DNA of 64,000 nucleotides from assembly GCF_014164785.1 (NCBI RefSeq), contig NZ_JACJFN010000005.1:62001-126000 (forward strand), given 5' to 3'. The notes under the pieces are model-generated. The model was not told the DNA's origin. It did no database searches and worked only from the letters and a program-made list of their open reading frames with translations. The translations under genes were made by a program, and so were the position numbers. Positions 46,141 to 59,495 of the stretch are shown one piece after another. The first letter of the stretch is position 1; each line of letters starts with the position of its first letter. This DNA comes from Aquipseudomonas guryensis. Lineage in GTDB: Bacteria > Pseudomonadota > Gammaproteobacteria > Pseudomonadales > Pseudomonadaceae.

Positions 46141-46827
46141 TCACAAGCACTGCATATCAGTACCGCAGGCTTCCGAATCACGCAGCGCCGGAGACTGCAT
46201 GCGCACCGTGGCCTCGGAGGTGATAACGATGCCGCGCCGGCCTGCTTGGCAGATATCGGTATAACCGGGCACCGCATTCTGCGAAGCGCCACTGAAACTG
46301 CCTTCGATATTGGCATTGTTGAAACTGGATGCCGCACTGAGCAGGCGGTCGACGATCGGTACCACCAGGTACAGACAGTACTGCACGCGGATCTTCAGCA
46401 GGTTGGCATCCTGGATGCCGGTTGCCGGACGGTACATCAGGTTGTCGTTGGGGATCAGGTAGTCCGACTCGTCACTGTCGAACTCCGCGAACGCACTGAA
46501 ATCGCTGAGGGTCGGGCTGATACGGGTAATGCGTACATAGTTGTCCACCTCGGCGCCGGCCTCGATATTGGCCTGCTCCTTGTCGGCATCGGTGTTGTGG
46601 TGGATGAACATCGGCGTCAGGCCACGAATCAATCCTCGGCGAATACCGTCGTAGCTGGCGTTGTTCACCGCGCCCAACCGGGCAGCCTGGAAGGTGGCGT
46701 AATTGAGGCTGTTCTTCGCCGAATAGATGAAGGCCGCCTGGATAGTACCGAAGATCAGCATGATCAACGCTGGCAGCACGATCAGGTACTCGACCATCGC
46801 CTGCCCCGACTGTTTGCGCCCACGCAT
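46141..46827 (-). CDS. TadE-like pseudopilin
   Basis: The 228-residue protein has the TadE/F-type leader K-Q-S-G-Q-A-M-V-E-Y followed by one membrane span (about 14-35), so it should be processed like Flp pilin (after Gly, with Glu at mature position 5). The periplasmic remainder has Cys residues near 152 and 197-227. It ends the tad operon, one base after the TPR lipoprotein gene, and probably forms part of the pilus or its assembly platform. Confidence 0.85.
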   Translation of the reverse strand: MRGRKQSGQAMVEYLIVLPALIMLIFGTIQAAFIYSAKNSLNYATFQAARLGAVNNASYDGIRRGLIRGLTPMFIHHNTDADKEQANIEAGAEVDNYVRITRISPTLSDFSAFAEFDSDESDYLIPNDNLMYRPATGIQDANLLKIRVQYCLYLVVPIVDRLLSAASSFNNANIEGSFSGASQNAVPGYTDICQAGRRGIVITSEATVRMQSPALRDSEACGTDMQCL

Positions 46828-49361: not shown

Positions 49362-51017
49362 TCACAACCCCGTATCGGTGGCGAAGATGCTCATGTCCAC
49401 GGGAATGCCGCGGCTGCGCAACTCTTCGTAGAACTCCGGCACCTGGCCGGTGGCCATGTAACGCCCCTGCACCCGGCCATTCTGGTCGAAGCCCTGCTGC
49501 CGGAAGCAGAAGATCTCGTTGAGCAGGATAGTGCCCTGCTCCATGCCAGTGATCTCGGTGATGCTGGTGATGCGCCGCGAACCATCGCCGAAACGGGTCT
49601 GCTGCACGATCAGGTTGACCGCCGAGGAAATTTGCTCGCGGATGGCCTGCACCGGCAGGTCCATACCGGCCATCAGTACCATGACCTCCAGACGACGCAG
49701 CATGTCGCGCGGCGAGTTGGCGTGGCCAGTGGTCAACGAACCATCATGGCCCGTGTTCATCGCCTGCAGCATGTCCAGCGCCTCGCCGCCACGACACTCA
49801 CCGACCACGATACGGTCCGGGCGCATGCGCAGGCAGTTGCGCACCAGGTCGCGAATAGTCACCTGGCCCTTGCCCTCCATGTTCGCCGGACGCGACTCCA
49901 GCGAAACCACGTGAGGCTGCACCAGTTTCAGTTCGGCGGCGTCTTCCACGGTGACCACCCGCTCCTCCACGGGAATGAAGTTGGAGAGGATGTTCAGCAG
50001 TGTAGTCTTGCCCGAACCGGTACCGCCGGAGACCACAATGTTCAGCCGCTGCTCCACCGCCGTGCGCAGGAAAGTCACCATCGGCTCGTTGATCGAGCCG
50101 TAGCGCAACAGGTCATCGGTGGTCAGCTTGTGGATGGAGAACTTGCGGATGGTCAGGCATGGACCACGCAGCGCCAGCGGCGGAATGATGGCGTTGACCC
50201 GCGAGCCATCCTTGAGACGCGCATCGACCATCGGCGAGCTTTCGTCGATGCGCCGTCCCAGCGGCGAGATGATCCGTTCGATGGTCGCCATCACCGTGGC
50301 ATCGGAGCTGAAGCTGATCGCCGAACGCTCCAGGCGCCCGGCCCGCTCGACGTAGATATCGTCGTGGCGGTTGACCATGATCTCGCTGACGCTCTCGTCG
50401 GCCAGCAGGTCTTCCAGGGGACCGAGGCCGACCGCCTCGTCCAGCACGATCTTGTGCAACACGCTGCAATCGATGCACTTGGGCAGGCGCCCGCGAATCT
50501 GCTCCATGACCTCGTCGACCAGTTCCGCCAGGCGCGCACGCACCTCGTCATGGGCCATGGTCTCCAGGCTCATGCGGCGCAGGTCCATGGCGCGGAACAG
50601 CTCGGCGTGGATGTACTTCGACCACTCCATGTAGGCCGCCTGGTCGTGCGTCACGATGCCGGCCGCTTCCGCCTCGTTGAGCGGCAGATCGCTATCGCTG
50701 GGCGGCATGGCCTCCGCTTCGACCTGCAGCGAGCGCACCCGTACCAGGTAACCACCGATGCCAATCTGGTCACTGTCGCTCAGCGGCCCGTAGCGCCCGA
50801 TCAGCTTGCCGTTGACTTCGACCTCGTAGCCACGACTGAGGTCTTCGACGAACAGGCCGGCTAGTGAGCGCTCAATCCGCGCATGGATCGGCGCCACTTT
50901 CCAGCCGCGCAGACGCAGGATGCAGGTGCGCGCCTTGCCCAACTCGCACTGCGCGGCCGTGCAGGTGACCTTGTCGACCGGCTGACCGTTGCGGTAGGTA
51001 ACCTCTAATTCGAACAT
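49362..51017 (-). CDS. tadA: Tad secretion ATPase TadA (CpaF) with N-terminal FHA-like domain
   Basis: TadA powers pilus assembly. The 551-residue protein has an N-terminal FHA-like domain (about 1-98): G-K-A-R-T near 27, I-H-A-R-I at 44-48, V-N-G at 68-70 and the C-terminal strands. The canonical phosphothreonine residues are not kept (G-K for G-R, and Ala in place of the Ser before His45), so phosphate binding is doubtful. The ATPase part starts at about 155: Walker A G-G-T-G-S-G-K-T at 331-338, Walker B R-I-V-V-G-E near 402-407, and the His box [11 protein letters not shown] at 423-433. It is about 130 residues longer than a plain TadA because of the extra domain. Confidence 0.9.
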
Positions 51018-51027
51018 CTGGTTACCC

Positions 51028-52512
51028 TCAGTCGAGCAGGCCGTTCTTCACGGTCTTGCCAAAGTCATCACGCATGCGATTGGCACGCTCGATTTCCCGC
51101 TGGTTGGCGCCGCTGCCGGCAATCATCAGCTCTGGAGTGATGAAGATCACCAGCTCGGTCTTGCCGCCCTTGAAGCTCTTGCTACGGAACAGTGCCCCCA
51201 GCACCGGGACATCTTTCAACCAGGCCACGCCCTCATAGGACTGCTGGCTGTCCTGATTGACCAGCCCGGACAGCACCAGGGTTTCGCCGACTTTCAGCTG
51301 CACTTCGTTATCGGTGCGACGGGTCTTGAATGCCGGGTAATCCCCCACCTGGTTGGCCTTGTCCAGCTGGCTGATCTCGGCCATCACCTTGGCCGCGATA
51401 CGGTCACTGCCGTAGATCTGCGGGGCGATGTTGAGGATGATGCCGAACTCCTTGTACTCCACCGAAGGGCCGTTGATGCTGCTCGTCACCACCGGCACTT
51501 CGCCGCCCACGGTCAGCTCGGCATTGCCGCCGCTGCGCGCAGACAGACGCGGCGAAGCCAGGGTCAGGGCCGAGCCGTTCTTCTCCAGCAGGTTGATGCG
51601 AGAAGTGATCTCGGTGGCGATACCGAAGTAGGTATTGGTGCCGGTATTGCCGATCGCATCGTTGAGCTCATCGAACGTCCCGGCCGCGCTGGGGAACTGG
51701 CCGCGGAAGTAGTCATTGGTGATGCCATCGGCCGAATGGGCGAGCGTCGGCCCGTTGATGCTGGTACTCCAGTTGATGCCCAGTTCTTCCACGTCGTCCT
51801 TGGCGAACTCGGTAATGCGCACGTCGAAGTAGATCATCGGGGCGACGAAATCGGACATTGGCTGCGCCAGCACCAGCAAGTCTGGATAGCGCTCCTGCAG
51901 CAGCTTGATGCGTTCCATGTCGATCTCGTTGAGATCACCGTCGACCACGATCTGCCGGCCCACCGGTTTGATCGAGATACCGGGAATCTGCCCAAGCATG
52001 GCCCGCACTTCCTCGAGCATCAGCCCGGAGTCGGACTTGGTTGCCGCCCCTGTCTGCTCTTCGGCCAGCACCAGCACATTGTCGTAGAACTTCACGGCAT
52101 CCTTGACCCGCTGCAGGTCGCGACTGTGCAGCTGCCCATCCATGACCACCTGACGACCAACGGTGCGGATCTTCAATCCGGGGATATCGGCCAGCAGTGC
52201 ACGCAGTTCGCCGATCTGCCGATAACCATTGGCCTTCACCACCACCACGCCCATCTGCTCGCGATGGCCATCGGTGAACCACACCTGCACGGTGGTTTCG
52301 CCTTCGTTTTCGGCGGTGATGACCATTTCCTGATTCTTCAGCAAAGTGGCGCTGATCACCTCCACGTCCCCTACCGCCAGACGTTCGATGCCAGGCGTTT
52401 CGAGTACCCGTACATCACCACTGTAAAGCGTCAGCTGTGCCGGAAGATCCTCGGCCAGCGCCGGAAACAGCGTTCCCATCCCCAAAAACAGAACCAGCAA
52501 GCGTGCTTTCAT
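51028..52512 (-). CDS. rcpA: Tad secretin RcpA (CpaC)
   Basis: RcpA forms the outer-membrane channel of the Tad system. The 494-residue precursor has a signal peptide (cleavage near A-L-A-E at about 21), a T2SS-type N-terminal domain (V-R-V-L-E-T-P-G-I-E-R), two tandem similar segments of about 55 residues (I-P-G-L-K-I-R-T-V-G-R-Q-V-V-M-D-G near 109-126 and I-P-G-I-S-I-K-P-V-G-R-Q-I-V-V-D-G near 176-193; BON-like) and the C-terminal secretin domain with V-P-V-L-G-A-L-F and T-E-L-V-I-F-I-T-P. It is about 10 bases before tadA. Confidence 0.92.
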   Translation of the reverse strand: MKARLLVLFLGMGTLFPALAEDLPAQLTLYSGDVRVLETPGIERLAVGDVEVISATLLKNQEMVITAENEGETTVQVWFTDGHREQMGVVVVKANGYRQIGELRALLADIPGLKIRTVGRQVVMDGQLHSRDLQRVKDAVKFYDNVLVLAEEQTGAATKSDSGLMLEEVRAMLGQIPGISIKPVGRQIVVDGDLNEIDMERIKLLQERYPDLLVLAQPMSDFVAPMIYFDVRITEFAKDDVEELGINWSTSINGPTLAHSADGITNDYFRGQFPSAAGTFDELNDAIGNTGTNTYFGIATEITSRINLLEKNGSALTLASPRLSARSGGNAELTVGGEVPVVTSSINGPSVEYKEFGIILNIAPQIYGSDRIAAKVMAEISQLDKANQVGDYPAFKTRRTDNEVQLKVGETLVLSGLVNQDSQQSYEGVAWLKDVPVLGALFRSKSFKGGKTELVIFITPELMIAGSGANQREIERANRMRDDFGKTVKNGLLD

Positions 52513-52587: not shown

Positions 52588-54645
52588 TTATTCCATGCGA
52601 ATCGTCTGGATCGGGATGATGCCGTCCTTGCCGGTGCCACCCGGAATGAACTGCACCATGCGACTGGCAGCCGGCGTTTCACTGGCCGCCGCGTCAGTGG
52701 CCAACGCCGCGTTGGCGGCAGCCTGGCCTTCGAGCGCGGCACTCACCCCGGCGGCTACGACATTGCCGTTGCCATCCACGACCTTGCCATCCACCAGTTT
52801 GCCAACCACCTTGCCATCGGCACCGTAGACGGTATCGCCCTTGAGCATGCCGATGACCTTGCCCGAGGCATCTCGCGCCACGCGGGCAACATCCTGCTGC
52901 ACTTCTACGGCGACACCCTCCGCCACCACCTGGCCATCCTTGCCGACCACCTTGCCATCCACCAGCTTGCCGACTTCACGGCCTTGCTCGTCCAGCACGC
53001 GATCGCCGACCACCGTGCCGAGCACCTTGCCCGAGGCGTCGCGCACCACCCGCACAGCGTCGTCTTTGGGCCGACCCTGCTCGTCGAGCAAGACCTTGTC
53101 GACCTGGCCGATCGCTTTGCCATCGGCACCGACTGCCTTGCCGTCCTTGACCTGACCGATGACCTTGCCGTTGGCGTCGACCACCTTGCCGTCAATCACC
53201 CGACCGAGAATCTTGCCATCGGCGCCACGCACCACCTCGCCCATCTGCCCGACCACCTTGCCCTGGGCATCCACCACGGCGGTGCTGACCTGGCCCAGGA
53301 CTTTGCCTTCCAGGCCGACCGGCTTGCCATCCTTGACCACGCCAATCACCTGGCCACGGGCGTCGAGCACCTTGCCGTCCTTGATGGTGCCGATCACCTT
53401 GCCGTTGACATCGCGCACCACCTGTTGCTCGCTGCCACGCACCTGCGGCAGCGCCTGGGCGATGGAAGCGCCCATATCGACTACGCGACCCTGAGCATCC
53501 AGTGCCACATTGCGCTCGACACGACCTAGGGTTTCGCCCTTGAGGCCTACGGCCTTGCCATCCTTGACCACGCCAATGATCTTGCCATCGGCGTCCAGTA
53601 CCTTGCCATCGACCACCCGACCCAGCACATTGCCATCGGCATCACGCACCACATCGGCCCGCGCCCGCACCCGCAGCAGCGGGTCATTGGCGGCCACTTT
53701 TTCCCTGACCGTACCCAGCGCCTTGCCATCGAAGCTCACCGGCTTGCCGTCGACCATCTTGCCGACGATGCGACCCTGGGCGTCCACCACGTTGTCGCCG
53801 ACGATGCGCCCGACCAGTTGGCCATCGGCGCCGAGCACCACATCAACGGTTTCCGTCGGGGGCGGATCGAGCAGGTTGGCCACGGTGACCTGGCCAAGCT
53901 TGCCCAGGCTGGTGTCCTTGGGATGGCGCAGAACCGCCAGCAGTTCGCCAGTCTTCTCCGCCAGTTCGACACGCGCCACCTGCTGCGGGCTGAGCGCCAG
54001 GGTGATGGTGGAAAAGTTCATGTTGAAACCGTCGGCCGAGTTCTGGTCATAGAAGGTCTCGTATTTGCGCCCGCTGGCGTCTTCGCGGCCGGCAGCCAGC
54101 ACCACGACGTTTTCCAGCACGGTCATGACCACATCGTCGGAATAATTCGGTTGTTTCTGCAGGCCAATATCGGTGGCGCTGAAGTTACCCAGCAGGTCGA
54201 TATGGTCTCCGGGACGCAGCAGGCCATCGAAGGAGTTGATCTTGCTGATCTTCACCGTCTTGCCGCGCTTGCCCAACTCGAGGTTCTCGGAAAAGCGCGT
54301 CACCGCGCTGCCCTCCACGGCACTCCAGGTGATCGGCTTGCCTTTCTGCAACGGCGCCTCGACCATGCGCCCGTCGAGCTTCTTCCAGTCCTGCGCCAGC
54401 ACAGCACCGGACGGCACGAACTGCGCCGGCACTTCCAGCACCGCGACCTTGTCCTTGGTCACCACCTCGGCCCTGCCGATGTCGTTGCGTGGCACCACCA
54501 GCGCCACCTTGCGCTCCACCGGTGGCTTATAGGCCTCGCGGTACTGCGCTTCCTTGCTCTTCAGGTACAGCCAGGCCGCGCCGCCTGAGACAACCCCGCA
54601 GACCACGGCAATGATCAACAACTTGCTCCCCGAAACCGGCTGCAT
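52588..54645 (-). CDS. cpaB: CpaB (RcpC) with very long C-terminal repeat array
   Basis: The first 260 residues are a normal CpaB: one N-terminal membrane span (about 8-28), SAF domain with A-V-L-E-V-P-A-Q-F-V-P near 67-77, and a pilus-assembly domain with L-R-P-G-D-H-I-D-L-L-G near 143-153. Residues 267-634 are a tandem array of about 21 units, each 14-17 residues, with the pattern [VI]-x-D-A-x-G-[KRQ]-[VI]-[VIL]-G-x-V-x-D-G-K. They group into six super-repeats starting near 268, 332, 409, 471, 533 and 589. A proline-poor tail rich in Ala follows and ends in I-P-I-Q-T-I-R-M-E. Usual CpaB proteins have 250-350 residues, so this one is about twice as long. The role of the array is not known. 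Confidence 0.88.
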   Translation of the reverse strand: MQPVSGSKLLIIAVVCGVVSGGAAWLYLKSKEAQYREAYKPPVERKVALVVPRNDIGRAEVVTKDKVAVLEVPAQFVPSGAVLAQDWKKLDGRMVEAPLQKGKPITWSAVEGSAVTRFSENLELGKRGKTVKISKINSFDGLLRPGDHIDLLGNFSATDIGLQKQPNYSDDVVMTVLENVVVLAAGREDASGRKYETFYDQNSADGFNMNFSTITLALSPQQVARVELAEKTGELLAVLRHPKDTSLGKLGQVTVANLLDPPPTETVDVVLGADGQLVGRIVGDNVVDAQGRIVGKMVDGKPVSFDGKALGTVREKVAANDPLLRVRARADVVRDADGNVLGRVVDGKVLDADGKIIGVVKDGKAVGLKGETLGRVERNVALDAQGRVVDMGASIAQALPQVRGSEQQVVRDVNGKVIGTIKDGKVLDARGQVIGVVKDGKPVGLEGKVLGQVSTAVVDAQGKVVGQMGEVVRGADGKILGRVIDGKVVDANGKVIGQVKDGKAVGADGKAIGQVDKVLLDEQGRPKDDAVRVVRDASGKVLGTVVGDRVLDEQGREVGKLVDGKVVGKDGQVVAEGVAVEVQQDVARVARDASGKVIGMLKGDTVYGADGKVVGKLVDGKVVDGNGNVVAAGVSAALEGQAAANAALATDAAASETPAASRMVQFIPGGTGKDGIIPIQTIRME
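52744..53847 (-). repeat. Coding repeat array in cpaB
   Basis: About 1.1 kb of near-periodic DNA encoding the 14-17-residue units (roughly 42-51 bases each). The unit is degenerate at DNA level, with recurring GGCAAGGT and GACGGCAAG on the minus strand. It lies wholly within the cpaB frame and keeps the frame throughout, which argues for protein-level selection. Confidence 0.9.
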
Positions 54646-54751: not shown

Positions 54752-55843
54752 TTAGTTCGGCCCGCTCAATGTCCAGCTGTCCGCGTTCTCCTGCAGCACC
54801 CAGCGGCCCTGGCAACCTCCCGAGCCGAGGTCGCCACTGTCGATGAAACCCACATTGTTGGTAGGTGACTCGACTACCGCGTTATTGGTGGTGGTGACAT
54901 CGTTGTCGTCGGCATCTTTTTCAGTCTTGGCAAAGGTGTAATCGCCACTGCCGGGATAACCGCTCAGCTCGCTGTTGACCCAGTCCAGGCCGCGCGCCAC
55001 GCACTTCGAATAGCCGCTCCAGCTGGCGATGGTCGTCAACTGGCTCAAGCGCATCTCGACCAGTTCAGCGTCCGGTATCTTCGCAGAGCCGTAGGTTTCG
55101 TTAGCCACCTGCACCTTGGCCAGCGAGTAGATGTAGCCGTCCACCTCATAGCCGAAATCGCTGATCTTGCCGGCGCTGTCGCGAATTTTCACCACGCGGG
55201 TATCACGTACCTCGGCGCCGTTCGGCACTTTGTCGGTCTCTTCACCCTGCAGGGCGTCGTAGTACTTGCCATCGTCGACATAACCGAAGCCCACCAGGTT
55301 ACCGTTGACGACGAAGGCCTTGACCTCTAGAGGGTCACCGTCCTTGCCCACCACCACACCGACGACGCTGACACCGGTGACAATCTCGCCATCAATGACC
55401 GCGGTCTGCTCGCCAGTTTCCGGATTGAAGACGTAATCACCAATCAGATTGCCTTCCAGGTCATAGATCTGCGTGCCCTGCACGACTCCCAGCAGATTGC
55501 CATTGGCGTCATAGATCTGGTTGACCTTGCCCAGGGTTTCCGGCTGCGGCGTATCGCCGTCATCGTCGCCACCACCGGGGATCTCGTCGTTGTCCTCTTC
55601 ATCGTCGTCATCGTCCTCGGCAGGCGGCGCAGCCACCTCCACATCGCCGTAATCCTGAATATCGCCGATGGCCGCCGAGTAGCCCGCATAGTTGTTATGC
55701 AGGGCGTCGAGCATGGTCGGGATGCAGCCCTTGGCGCTATTGGCCTCGCTGCACGGCACCAGAGTCAGCGCCGCCAGGATGCTGCCGCTGACGCCCAGCA
55801 CTACCAGGTACTCGGCCATCGACTGCCCCTTTTGGCGGCGCAT
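54752..55843 (-). CDS. TadE-like pseudopilin with acidic linker and CpaB-type repeats
   Basis: The 363-residue protein has a pilin-type leader (K-G-Q-S-M-A-E-Y, cleavage after Gly6), a membrane span (about 12-30), and then a soluble part. An acidic tract (about 76-97, mostly Asp/Glu) is followed by two units resembling the cpaB repeats (I-Y-D-A-N-G-N-L-L-G-V-V at about 110-121 and I-Y-D-L-E-G-N-L-I-G-D-Y at about 126-137). Weaker continuation (V-V-N-G-N-L-V-G near 178) follows, and then a Cys-containing C-terminal part with G-G-C-Q-G-R-W. It is one base downstream of the 223-residue gene. Confidence 0.82.
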   Translation of the reverse strand: MRRQKGQSMAEYLVVLGVSGSILAALTLVPCSEANSAKGCIPTMLDALHNNYAGYSAAIGDIQDYGDVEVAAPPAEDDDDDEEDNDEIPGGGDDDGDTPQPETLGKVNQIYDANGNLLGVVQGTQIYDLEGNLIGDYVFNPETGEQTAVIDGEIVTGVSVVGVVVGKDGDPLEVKAFVVNGNLVGFGYVDDGKYYDALQGEETDKVPNGAEVRDTRVVKIRDSAGKISDFGYEVDGYIYSLAKVQVANETYGSAKIPDAELVEMRLSQLTTIASWSGYSKCVARGLDWVNSELSGYPGSGDYTFAKTEKDADDNDVTTTNNAVVESPTNNVGFIDSGDLGSGGCQGRWVLQENADSWTLSGPN

Positions 55844-55844
55844 C

Positions 55845-56516
55845 TCAGCGATCCATCCGGTTGAGCAGGATCTGGGTGAATTCCTGATGGCGCAGGAACA
55901 CGATCGACAGCTGTTCGCGCCCTTCGCTGTAGATCAGCGTGGCGTCGTTCTGCCGCACCAGCCGGCGGTTGAGCTGCCAGCCATTACGCGCCATCTCGCT
56001 CTCGTACCAGCTCACCGAATCTTCCAGGGTGTTGGAACTGGCCAGCATGACCATTTGCCCATCCCGGAAACGGTCCTGGTTCTGCATGTCGGAGACCACC
56101 GCAGCATCGGGTGGAATCGGCACGCCACTGCCCAGCGGGCGGCTGACCATCTCCTCGTCCGGCGGGTTGACCAGCATCAGCCGGCCCATGCTCTGCGTGC
56201 CCTGGCCCTGCAGCTGCACCATCATCATGCAGTCTTCGGTGAGGTGCATGATCTGCTGCCAGGGGCCGAACTCGCTGAAGTCGACCTCGCCTTCCCAGCG
56301 CTCGCCATAGAAGCCCTTTACCGCCTCCGGGGGCGCCTCGACCTGGAAGCCCTTGACGCTCATCGGCACGTTGTTCCACTGCATGTTCTCGGCAATGCTG
56401 GCTACCTGCATGCCTTCCAGCAGTGGGAACTCATCGAAGTCGCAGTCCGCCCGCAGTGGCTCGGCGCAGGACAGCGCCGCGGCAAACACCAGCGCGCCCA
56501 GCCGAGGGTTATTCAT
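55845..56516 (-). CDS. Periplasmic protein of unknown function in the tad operon
   Basis: The ATG at 56516 overlaps the previous gene by 8 bases and gives 223 residues with a signal peptide (cleavage near L-R-A-D at about 23). The mature protein has scattered Cys residues and a long C-terminal part rich in Gln/Met (for example M-M-M-V-Q-L-Q-G-Q-G) that ends in Q-I-L-L-N-R-M-D-R. No known domain is seen; it presumably acts in pilus assembly because it is embedded between pseudopilin genes. Confidence 0.72.
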   Translation of the reverse strand: MNNPRLGALVFAAALSCAEPLRADCDFDEFPLLEGMQVASIAENMQWNNVPMSVKGFQVEAPPEAVKGFYGERWEGEVDFSEFGPWQQIMHLTEDCMMMVQLQGQGTQSMGRLMLVNPPDEEMVSRPLGSGVPIPPDAAVVSDMQNQDRFRDGQMVMLASSNTLEDSVSWYESEMARNGWQLNRRLVRQNDATLIYSEGREQLSIVFLRHQEFTQILLNRMDR

Positions 56517-57426
56517 CGAAGTAACAGAAGCCAAAGTCGCAATCCACGTCAGCATCGGGCAGCGGCTCGATACCGACATAACCGAAGTCCACATCATTGA
56601 ATGAGGGCTCGAACAGCCCGATCACATCGATGGCGGCATTCACCACCGCGTTGTCCATCATGGTGCCGATGGCGAAGTCGTCCACCCGCTCCTTGAAGTG
56701 ATGATCGCCCTGGGCATTCCAGCCATCGGCCAGCACGGCACTGTTGGCACGCATCGTCAGGCCAGACGGCAGGTATTCCGGGCCGAGAAAGCCGCGTCCG
56801 TCGATCGTCTCCAGGCCACCGTTACCGAGATTGACGCTGGCGGTGACGTTGGGCGTGAAGTAGTTGTCCTGCGGGTGGGCAACCTGCAGAAAGTCATCAT
56901 CGTTCTGGATCTTCAGCATGGTCAGCGGCGTCATCAGCAGATCCATGCCGTCGTTGTAGACCTCCAGCACGTCGTAGGCGAACGAGGGGGTTTCCTGCGG
57001 GCTCAGGCTGCCACCGGTCAAACCGCCGCCGCTGAGCATCTGCTGGCCATTGCTCCAGCGCCACAGGGCATGCTTCTCGCCGGTGGCAATACCGGACACA
57101 TCACTGGCACTGAGAGTTTGCGGCACACTGCTGAAGGTCAGCAGGCGCTTCTCGGCAGTACCGGAAATCGCTGCATCGCTGCGGATGGCGATGTCATAGC
57201 CGGGCTCGGTGGTTTCACCCGGCTGGTCGCCGTTGTCGTACCAGACGGTGCGCTCCCAGGCCACATAACGGGCCATTACCTGGGTCTGGAAGCTCATGTC
57301 GAGCAGCTTGGCCAGCCCCGGCACGATCAGGAACAGCACCAGCAACACGCCACTGGTCATGACCACGAACTCGGTCATGGCCTGGCCGCTGCTGGCCCTG
57401 GGCAGATCACGCTGAGCGAGGCTCAT
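56509..57426 (-). CDS. TadE-like pseudopilin (305 aa)
   Basis: The N-terminus has A-S-S-G-Q-A-M-T-E-F followed by a membrane span (about 19-41), the TadE/F-type leader with Glu at mature position 5. The rest is a long periplasmic region (about 260 residues) rich in Asp and Gly, ending in Y-F-D-E. It overlaps the following TadG-like gene by 4 bases (ATGA). Confidence 0.82.
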   Translation of the reverse strand: MSLAQRDLPRASSGQAMTEFVVMTSGVLLVLFLIVPGLAKLLDMSFQTQVMARYVAWERTVWYDNGDQPGETTEPGYDIAIRSDAAISGTAEKRLLTFSSVPQTLSASDVSGIATGEKHALWRWSNGQQMLSGGGLTGGSLSPQETPSFAYDVLEVYNDGMDLLMTPLTMLKIQNDDDFLQVAHPQDNYFTPNVTASVNLGNGGLETIDGRGFLGPEYLPSGLTMRANSAVLADGWNAQGDHHFKERVDDFAIGTMMDNAVVNAAIDVIGLFEPSFNDVDFGYVGIEPLPDADVDCDFGFCYFDE

Positions 57427-59495
57427 GGCACATAGCTCTCCAGCTCGCCCATCAAGGCATCCTTGGCCGTGCCGGTCACCTCATCCATCACCTCGTCGAC
57501 CACTTCCTCGGCGAACATTTTCACCGGTGGTTTGATGGTCTTCAGCAGGCGTTCCTTGGCCGGGTCGGCCAATGCGCCGATGGCGGTATCCACCACATAC
57601 TCGGCGACGCCCATGATGCCGCCCGACAGGTTGAGCTCACTGAGCAAGGTGAAAGGATCGACATCACCACTGGCGATCATCATGGTGATCTTGCTCGGTT
57701 CACGTAGGCGCGCGTCCCAGAACGGGCTGAACTGGCTCGCCACCTCGCCATCCCGCGGGCTGGCGAAATAGGTCTCGGCCGAGGACACGGTCATCAGTGC
57801 ATCCGGCTCCTGCCACATCACCGTGGCGTAGGCCGTGGCCACCGCATCACCCTCGCTGGCACTGGTGGTGTCCAGCTGGAAGCGATGCAGATTGGTACCA
57901 GATGAGCCATTCAGGTTGAGGCCGTCGGGGCTGTCGGTGGTGGGCACATCGCTGAGCTTCTTGGCCACCGCAATGCTGAACTCATGGCTGGTACCAGAAT
58001 CGGCAAAGGAATCATTGAGGCCGAAGAACGATGGCGGTCCGGCATAGTTCTTCGCCACATCGGCGGGAATGCTGCCGTAGATATTGCGCACGTTACCCCA
58101 CAGATAGGTCACCGCATGCACCAGGTCGAAGGTTTCGCCGTACATGCCCGGTGCCATGTCCAGGTATTGCATCCCTGGAAAGCCCCATTGCGGCCCGGCG
58201 CGCATGGCGTCCAGGTCCTCGGCCACCAACTGTTCGGTCGCCCCGCTGATGGGTAGCCCCATGTGGATGGGAATCGTCCCGTCGATGATGGTGAAGCATT
58301 CGGTGCCAACCACCGGGAACCACAGGCACAGCTCGACGGAAAGATCGATATCCAGCTTGAAGCCAAGCGAGGTCATGTCGATCGAGGTCCAGCCATAGCG
58401 CTCGATACCATCGCCCGTGCTGCTGGTACGCAAGGGGTTGTAACGGTAGGCTGTGCCGCCATCGTTGAACGAGCCGACCTCAAGAGTCAGGCTGAACTTG
58501 ATGGTCAACGGGCCGAGGAAAATCGGAATCTCCGGCGAGCTGATCGCCGGCGGCCCCAGATTGAAATGGCGATCGGCCAGCCAGTCGTTGCGGTTGTCGT
58601 TGACGATGGCGGCGAAGTGCTTGTAGGCCTCCTTGGCGTCGTCATTGGGCGGCGGATCGGCGGCTCCGGCCTTCTTCTTGTAGCGATCCGGGTTGGTATC
58701 CACCAGCATGGTTTCCGGCCCGTTGAGGCCGCCGAGGAAAGAGCCGACCACCTCGTCGGTGGTAGAGGGTTCGGCCGCGCCACCTCCCGCCGCGCCACCG
58801 CTGTTCATGGCGCTGCTGGCCTGGCTGTAGAGGTTCTCGTAGCTGAAGGTATCGCCGAAGTAAGTCAACGCCGCATTCTGGGTCAGGAAGTAGTAGCCCA
58901 GCAGCGGTATATAAAGGTCATCGTCGGGATCGGCGTTCGACGGATTCTGGTGCGCCTCCACCACTTCGATCATGCCTTCAATCTGCGACTCCACCGTGGC
59001 CACGGCAAAGGCCTTCTGAAACATGGACAGGGCCATGTTGAAGTACGACACGGTGGTCGGATAGAAGCCCACCAGCGGCTTGCTCACCGCCTCCACCCCG
59101 TAGCCGAGGATGATGTAGGGCAGATAGGCCAGCTTGAGCACATCGGCCAGGGTCGGCCGTGGCGAAGGCGGGACTATGGGAATCTGGTACGCCGGGAAGG
59201 AATCGACCCAGCTGGGAATGGTCTTGTAGCGCTTTGACCACGACAGCATCGCCACCATCTGCCCCACCGACAGCTCGTTGGCGACCATGGCGCGGTTGGT
59301 GTAGGCGATGAAGTTCTGGTTGCGGGCGAACAACTTGGCCTGGGAATACACCGCCGCATCGGCGGCGTTTTCCAGCTGCACGCGATCACGGCTGAGGATG
59401 CCGTGGTTGTACACCAGCAGCATCGCCACCAGTGCCACACCGAAAAAGAGCAGGCCAAAAACCATGGCCTGCCCTTTCTGGGCTGAACGCTTCAT
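57423..59495 (-). CDS. Large TadG-like protein (690 aa)
   Basis: The 690-residue protein starts K-G-Q-A-M-V-F-G-L-L-F, a leader like the others but without the conserved Glu, followed by one membrane span (about 12-31). The N-terminal TadG-type element R-V-Q-L-E-N-A-A-D-A-A-V-Y follows near 37-49. The remainder is a long periplasmic part with no repeat I can name and a C-terminal acidic amphipathic helix (E-E-V-V-D-E-V-M-D-E-V). TadG-like proteins are minor parts of the pilus or its anchor. At this size it is much larger than TadE. Confidence 0.78.
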   Translation of the reverse strand: MKRSAQKGQAMVFGLLFFGVALVAMLLVYNHGILSRDRVQLENAADAAVYSQAKLFARNQNFIAYTNRAMVANELSVGQMVAMLSWSKRYKTIPSWVDSFPAYQIPIVPPSPRPTLADVLKLAYLPYIILGYGVEAVSKPLVGFYPTTVSYFNMALSMFQKAFAVATVESQIEGMIEVVEAHQNPSNADPDDDLYIPLLGYYFLTQNAALTYFGDTFSYENLYSQASSAMNSGGAAGGGAAEPSTTDEVVGSFLGGLNGPETMLVDTNPDRYKKKAGAADPPPNDDAKEAYKHFAAIVNDNRNDWLADRHFNLGPPAISSPEIPIFLGPLTIKFSLTLEVGSFNDGGTAYRYNPLRTSSTGDGIERYGWTSIDMTSLGFKLDIDLSVELCLWFPVVGTECFTIIDGTIPIHMGLPISGATEQLVAEDLDAMRAGPQWGFPGMQYLDMAPGMYGETFDLVHAVTYLWGNVRNIYGSIPADVAKNYAGPPSFFGLNDSFADSGTSHEFSIAVAKKLSDVPTTDSPDGLNLNGSSGTNLHRFQLDTTSASEGDAVATAYATVMWQEPDALMTVSSAETYFASPRDGEVASQFSPFWDARLREPSKITMMIASGDVDPFTLLSELNLSGGIMGVAEYVVDTAIGALADPAKERLLKTIKPPVKMFAEEVVDEVMDEVTGTAKDALMGELESYVP

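Follow-up and report, generated by a model that had tools for sequence, protein, structure and literature searches.

In the 64,000-nucleotide stretch of Aquipseudomonas guryensis DNA analysed here (the window), we found that the cpaB/rcpC gene encodes a protein with an array of six β-hairpin super-repeats (beads), placed between the linker after its D2 domain and a conserved C-terminal segment. The domains of this protein and their order, the insertion site, the conservation of the array, the purifying selection acting on it and the change in bead number between species could all be established, and the architecture is well supported. For its function we infer, with a probability of about one half, a beaded periplasmic sleeve or tether between the inner-membrane ring and the secretin of the Tad pilus machine. 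Three ingredients are already known: CpaB itself, the Tad locus, and the β-flower families, to which the repeats are related by sequence. The preliminary description of this DNA was aware of no published CpaB bearing such an array, and this still stands: a literature search whose scope excluded most subscription papers and all bioRxiv preprints gave no paper on a CpaB that carries a repeat array, whether of β-flower or of another type. CpaB ordinarily forms a ring through which the pilus is guided across the cell envelope; a string of β-hairpin beads, set just before its presumed secretin-gripping tip, may make a periplasmic sleeve in a manner not yet described.

The cpaB gene and its repeats

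The preliminary description had placed the gene at 52588-54645 without giving a strand; the position holds and the strand is minus (Table 1), the plus-strand reading of the interval containing two stops in frame. The 685-residue frame matches the CpaB model TIGR03177 with 125.2 bits (cut-off 71) over residues 11-262, and its SAF and RcpC domains sit behind a predicted N-terminal membrane helix. Judged by these matches, the product is CpaB/RcpC, a predicted subunit of the Tad-pilus alignment complex. A single place in the A. guryensis genome matches the whole protein, and the RcpC family likewise matches once.

The surroundings are, by their Pfam content, a Tad pilus locus: the secretin, a T2SSE ATPase (49362-51017) and two proteins matching Tad and TadE (57423-59495 and 46141-46827) share the strand of cpaB, and the minor pilin-like gene lies directly upstream of it. 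Two minor features of the locus are an FHA domain fused to the N-terminus of the ATPase, and a 250-residue protein (55845-56597) that Pfam does not match up to E 1. This protein lies between the minor pilin-like gene and 56509-57426, and L039 has a frame that looks similar.

Table 1. Features of the cpaB region, with positions in the window
Feature	Positions	Strand	Basis
Tad secretin CpaC/RcpA, with which the C-terminal segment probably pairs	51028..52512	-	Pfam, alignment
cpaB/rcpC gene, 685 aa (P0001)	52588..54645	-	ORF, Pfam, TIGR03177
Conserved C-terminal segment, residues 661-685	52591..52665	-	counterpart of the RcpC β-hairpin by position and motif
Spacer, poorly conserved, residues 641-660	52666..52725	-	conservation 0.43
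Super-repeat 6, residues 589-640	52726..52881	-	autocorrelation, Pfam
Super-repeat 5, residues 533-588	52882..53049	-	autocorrelation, Pfam
Super-repeat 4, residues 471-532	53050..53235	-	autocorrelation, AF2, Pfam
Super-repeat 3, residues 409-470	53236..53421	-	autocorrelation, AF2, Pfam
Super-repeat 2, residues 332-408	53422..53652	-	autocorrelation, Pfam
β-flower-type super-repeat 1, residues 269-331	53653..53841	-	autocorrelation, Pfam
Linker after D2 (L3-like by position), residues 241-268	53842..53925	-	alignment; conservation 0.80
RcpC domain (D2), residues 118-240	53926..54294	-	Pfam PF16976, 63.8 bits (cut-off 28.8)
SAF domain (D1), residues 50-111	54313..54498	-	Pfam PF08666, 31.7 bits (cut-off 21)
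N-terminal membrane-anchor helix, residues 6-38	54532..54630	-	AF2 secondary structure (low-confidence model)
Minor pilin-like gene, 363 aa, GQSMAEY start, related hairpin region ~110-243	54752..55843	-	Pfam, profile

Autocorrelation of residues 263-640 gave mean BLOSUM62 scores of 0.44 at a lag of 16 residues and 0.30 at a lag of 62, against a maximum of -0.10 in 500 shuffles. Super-repeat borders were set by a manual split of this output and hairpin units were counted by eye (3+4+4+4+3+3), which bears out the earlier estimate of some 21 units in six super-repeats; in our split these cover residues 269-640 with 52-77 residues each. By our own count, 13 of the 21 units carry the hairpin-tip motif [DNEQ]xxG.

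The whole protein passes the Pfam cut-offs of both β-flower families, PF21785 (Bflower_2; 105.1, cut-off 38) and PF21784 (Bflower; 96.5, cut-off 25), and every super-repeat taken singly matches both, with E values of 7.5e-8 to 4.7e-4 for the former and 6.1e-7 to 0.021 for the latter. Two shuffled arrays and a reversed one gave zero Pfam matches up to E 0.1; together with the 500 shuffles, these controls rule out an artefact of chance or composition. Fewer single super-repeats exceed a cut-off: two of the six for PF21784, none for PF21785, two for DUF3659 and one for PRC-barrel, and the whole protein also passes DUF3659. Since DUF3659 and PRC-barrel pass their cut-offs as well, these families and β-flower overlap on repeats of this kind. 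We call the units β-flower-type in the sense of a sequence family, leaving the fold itself aside.

In the excerpts of PMC10584680 used here, β-flower proteins are described as closed, shallow β-barrels whose petals are hairpins in 4-, 5- or 6-fold arrangement, tipped by a semiconserved [DNEQ]xxG motif; the fold is known from predicted models and has no assigned function there. CpaB shares with them the family matches and the D-x-x-G hairpin tips, but it has tandem super-repeats inside a pilus-machine protein. Furthermore, β-flower and Tubby-like proteins have a described network, whereas the CpaB array is nearly devoid of aromatics (one F and one Y in 372 residues); its net charge is +4.

A first AF2 model of the whole protein, made with four sequences, was weak (mean pLDDT 59.8, with 43-84 in the blocks of the array and 26-35 in the last 45 residues). 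AF2 of super-repeats 3 and 4 with 50 aligned pairs reached a mean pLDDT of 85.3 and showed regular short strands, in agreement with the alternating strands and D-x-x-G turns proposed in the preliminary description. Confidence in the placement of these two super-repeats relative to each other is limited, with a pTM of 0.58. Structural alignments to this model fell into two blocks (about 1-48 and 53-122; all Z ≤ 3.5), which hints at separate domains rather than one continuous coil. Of the two folds suggested at the outset, β-hairpin units fit the array, while a β-solenoid is the less favoured reading, the β-flower families being matched instead; this is a judgement by sequence family and not by coordinates. 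A Foldseek search of the two-super-repeat model gave no match in PDB or BFVD at E 0.001, which does not imply that the fold is new.

An insert before the C-terminal segment

The array had been described as an extension past the normal end of CpaB. Our comparisons contradict this and place it as an insert before a conserved 25-residue tail. The A. guryensis protein ends in RMVQFIPGGTGKDGIIPIQTIRME; in ordinary CpaBs the last residues form a short segment, for example VEVIRG or VEFIIGG. We searched 1640 ORF segments of the loci with a profile built from 30 tails of array-bearing CpaBs. Outside the training loci, the three top-ranked matches fell in the C-terminal parts of CpaBs that lack the array: L069 (E 3.8e-4; 57 more residues follow the match), L013 (0.022) and L012 (0.029). 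The next three, with E values of 1 to 2.3, were two further CpaBs (L016 and L010) and one non-CpaB. The tail of L058 was left out of the profile; its CpaB frame ends in residues resembling translated sequencing adapter, so that the contig end may be an artefact. In a MAFFT alignment of twelve CpaBs, the array falls in the gap between the linker after D2 and the C-terminal segment, and this segment aligns with the ends of five of the six array-less proteins; the exception is L069, although the profile does find it. Given this likeness of residues 661-685 to the ends of ordinary CpaBs, we read the array as an insertion and reject an appended extension. Large inserts are evidently tolerated where D2 of CpaB joins the hairpin. 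Over its 25 codons the tail has a dN/dS that varies from 0.00 to 0.46 and is not uniformly low.

RcpC of P. aeruginosa (PDB 9gzr) is built alike, from a membrane anchor, D1, D2, a linker and a C-terminal segment whose motif matches, but it is 303 residues long and lacks the array, whereas about 390 residues separate the linker from the C-terminal segment in A. guryensis. Its alignment with an array-less Pseudomonas CpaB runs through the C-terminal segment. Searched with phmmer against PDB sequences, the A. guryensis protein itself returned only weak, unrelated-looking matches (best E 0.031); since it missed 9gzr in this way, the likeness between the two runs through the array-less Pseudomonas protein.

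According to the excerpts of the P. aeruginosa study used here (PMC12307814), the RcpC ring is a dodecamer, linker L3 is needed for oligomerisation, and the C-terminal β-hairpin, which is needed for Tad function, is modelled as completing a sheet of the secretin N-domain. The N-domain of RcpA is described as VirB9-like (PMC10499894). Since an RcpC construct lacking the hairpin was still co-purified with the N-domain of the secretin, this hairpin is not the sole secretin contact; the model in the same excerpts has the N-domain touching both the hairpin and D2 (PMC12307814). By position and motif, the C-terminal segment of the A. guryensis protein resembles the secretin-binding hairpin of RcpC and is its likely counterpart, and a secretin contact through this tail is plausible.

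Distribution, bead number and history

The array is not unique to A. guryensis. Scanning a genome collection with a profile of four relatives yielded 17 loci, 15 of them labelled Pseudomonas or Pseudomonadaceae, one Gammaproteobacteria and one uncultured Cellvibrionales. With three same-genus loci and that of A. guryensis they make 21, some possibly from the same genome; two (L054 and L055) are cut by a contig end, leaving 19 full-length CpaBs. All 19 carry the array, each with at least four super-repeats, and 14 have six. Super-repeats have been lost in the other five: L046 has five, L047 and L051 have five and a remnant, L049 has four and a remnant, and L053 has four. The comparison of unit counts between strains suggested by the preliminary description, extended here to species, thus gave a super-repeat number of 4 to 6. 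Within the genus, this type of CpaB was detected (E 1e-30 or better) in 11 of 398 genomes, A. guryensis included. Their stop-to-stop frames are all long (636-720 aa); the array was read directly in four of the 11 and deduced from length in the others.

If the array were a linker expansion that is tolerated but has no specific task, whole super-repeats could be missing in some species, as they are, and new ones could arise, as the two adjacent super-repeats of L046 that look recently duplicated by eye may have done. Such neutral growth is nevertheless very improbable. The array is under purifying selection, with a dN/dS of 0.14-0.34 in six comparisons (0.11-0.28 for the N-terminal 262 residues). 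Conservation is 0.85 for D2, 0.83 for the C-terminal tail and 0.62-0.79 for the super-repeats, missing super-repeats being scored as differences. Moreover, a comparison among six of the 14 six-bead proteins gave a higher mean likeness for corresponding super-repeats (0.55-0.70) than for different ones (0.38-0.52), which indicates that the six are old, were kept in order and diverged before the species did. The retention of at least four super-repeats in all 19 full-length proteins likewise argues against a neutral insert. A rapidly changing array could be rejected for the six-bead group (14 of 19), whose alignment contains no indel of four or more residues.

To place the array in the class, we drew on a sample of 369 genomes, 54 of them with RcpC. 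By our own count these hold 56 proteins, of which 55 were examined; G259, a 130-residue fragment, was left out, and L084, L098 and L109 look cut by contig ends. A DG-repeat array is present in 13 of the 55, A. guryensis included, with 150-515 residues after D2, while the other 42 have 5-141 residues there (a few being cut by contig ends). The array is therefore a minority trait in the class, and the view that most CpaBs carry it, which would have refuted the preliminary description, can be dismissed. The DG-repeat CpaBs of other Gammaproteobacteria (L056-L058, L061-L068 and L071) have their array at the same site, before a tail like GG-x-[SG]-x-[DN]-G, except for L058, which has no usable tail. 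They differ in repeat family: of the ten foreign arrays scanned (all 12 except L062 and L067), six exceed the DUF3659 cut-off and L065 alone exceeds those of β-flower, whereas L071 stays below the cut-off in its match to PF21784 and neither L058 nor L061 passes any repeat family. When three DUF3659-type arrays were compared with that of A. guryensis as profiles, the match (91.3%, E 9.5e-7) was confined to a single short stretch, and it carries no weight in our conclusions. On a tree of 58 rows, which leaves out L084, L098 and L109, two changes of the array label are required, and in 43% of bootstrap trees a single one is enough. So few changes suggest an old trait with one or two origins rather than a recent Pseudomonas oddity; many independent origins are not supported.

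The DotG parallel and the function of the array

PF21785 matches occur in at least six of 274 class genomes, A. guryensis included, a figure that is no census because G526, whose CpaB passes PF21785, is absent from it. The other five proteins (L112-L116, in G358, G284, G208, G367 and G222) are DotG/IcmE-like, matching NF033900 with E values of 6.9e-22 to 1.8e-100, all below its 750-bit cut-off. Four of the five have a membrane anchor, a β-flower array and a TrbI/VirB10 domain, in this order; L112 is a fragment ending in the array. DotG connects the inner and outer membranes in type IVB secretion. In the excerpts of PMC7511231 used here, tomography suggests that the DotG repeats are located in the periplasmic stalk, and deletion of dotG removes stalk, plug and dome density. 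The Legionella repeats are called penta-peptide repeats there (PMC7511231), so the likeness of CpaB to DotG is one of position and, in the five genomes, of repeat family. The two share an inner-membrane anchor, a hairpin-repeat array (of the same Pfam families in those genomes) and a C-terminal part directed to the outer membrane. They belong to different machines, however, and this C-terminal part is TrbI/VirB10 in DotG but a short hairpin segment in CpaB; a Pfam scan of the A. guryensis protein gave no match to PF03743 up to E 1. The A. guryensis CpaB is thus not a DotG, though it may work like one.

Helped by this parallel, a periplasmic stalk or sleeve is our leading reading. The ring of D1 and D2 domains would lie at the inner membrane, probably as a dodecamer like that of P. 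aeruginosa, and the C-terminal hairpin would still dock on the secretin N-domain; both the dodecamer and the hairpin contact are taken over from the P. aeruginosa work. Twelve bead chains would run between or around the ring and secretin contacts as a sleeve or tether. In this way they would surround the path of the pilus, and they might also fix the machine at the layer of the cell wall. We infer this arrangement from the retention of the ring end and the presumed secretin-binding end with the beads between them. Six in-line beads may not fit straight, because ring and secretin of P. aeruginosa already span 21 of the about 24 nm of periplasm; a small gap is noted there, and the authors left their assembly model to be tested (excerpts of PMC12307814).

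This tight fit bears on an alternative that we regard as unlikely, though worth weighing, in which the hairpin and D2 stay close together and the twelve arrays loop outward as a lateral collar that binds or displaces peptidoglycan, replacing a protein such as CpaI. The placement of hairpin and D2 on the same secretin domain (excerpts of PMC12307814) is consistent with such a collar, as is the difference in bead number between species. Some β-flower proteins are annotated as cell wall-binding (excerpts of PMC10584680), and in Caulobacter the separate periplasmic protein CpaI is placed at the peptidoglycan, with the CpaB hairpin predicted to pack on it (excerpts of PMC13170226). However, no peptidoglycan-binding family is among the Pfam matches, the charge and the two aromatics of the array offer no obvious glycan-binding face, and the DotG parallel favours an in-line role.

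The minor pilin-like gene, which adjoins cpaB in all 21 loci, raises another option: an array lying in the ring wall could bind the related domain of the minor pilin and keep the pilus tip complex in the conduit until engagement of the secretin. In hhalign, the array profile aligns with one made from 15 of these pilins (97.5%, E 7.2e-12). The pilin domain nevertheless stays below the Pfam β-flower cut-off (best 21.8 of 25 bits), four of the ten minor pilin-like proteins scanned have no β-flower match up to E 1, and the likeness may only reflect domain copying within the operon or shared composition. We consider such homotypic docking improbable; it and the neutral insert are both less likely than either the sleeve or tether or the collar.

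Returning to the sleeve or tether, we propose more tentatively that arrays of β-flower and related DG hairpins may serve envelope-crossing machines as a reusable, bead-counted module that spans the periplasm, shared by two unrelated connectors, CpaB and DotG/IcmE. The presence of β-flower repeats in two membrane-to-membrane connectors offers a concrete hypothesis for the function of the fold, and this module, if real, would give it a concrete cellular role. Because natural CpaBs either lack the array or carry 4, 5 or 6 beads exactly where D2 meets the hairpin, they make the spacing in RcpC testable. A strict ruler is not what we expect: bead number ranges from 4 to 6, and the secretins of four Pseudomonas with fewer beads (L046, L047, L049 and L051) align end to end with that of A. 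guryensis. The secretin of L053, which has four beads, lacks about one internal segment. As a separate observation on these secretins, those of the Pseudomonas array loci match that of A. guryensis over its whole length and seem to hold two BON-like segments, where the alignment of several other lineages looks as though a single one were present.
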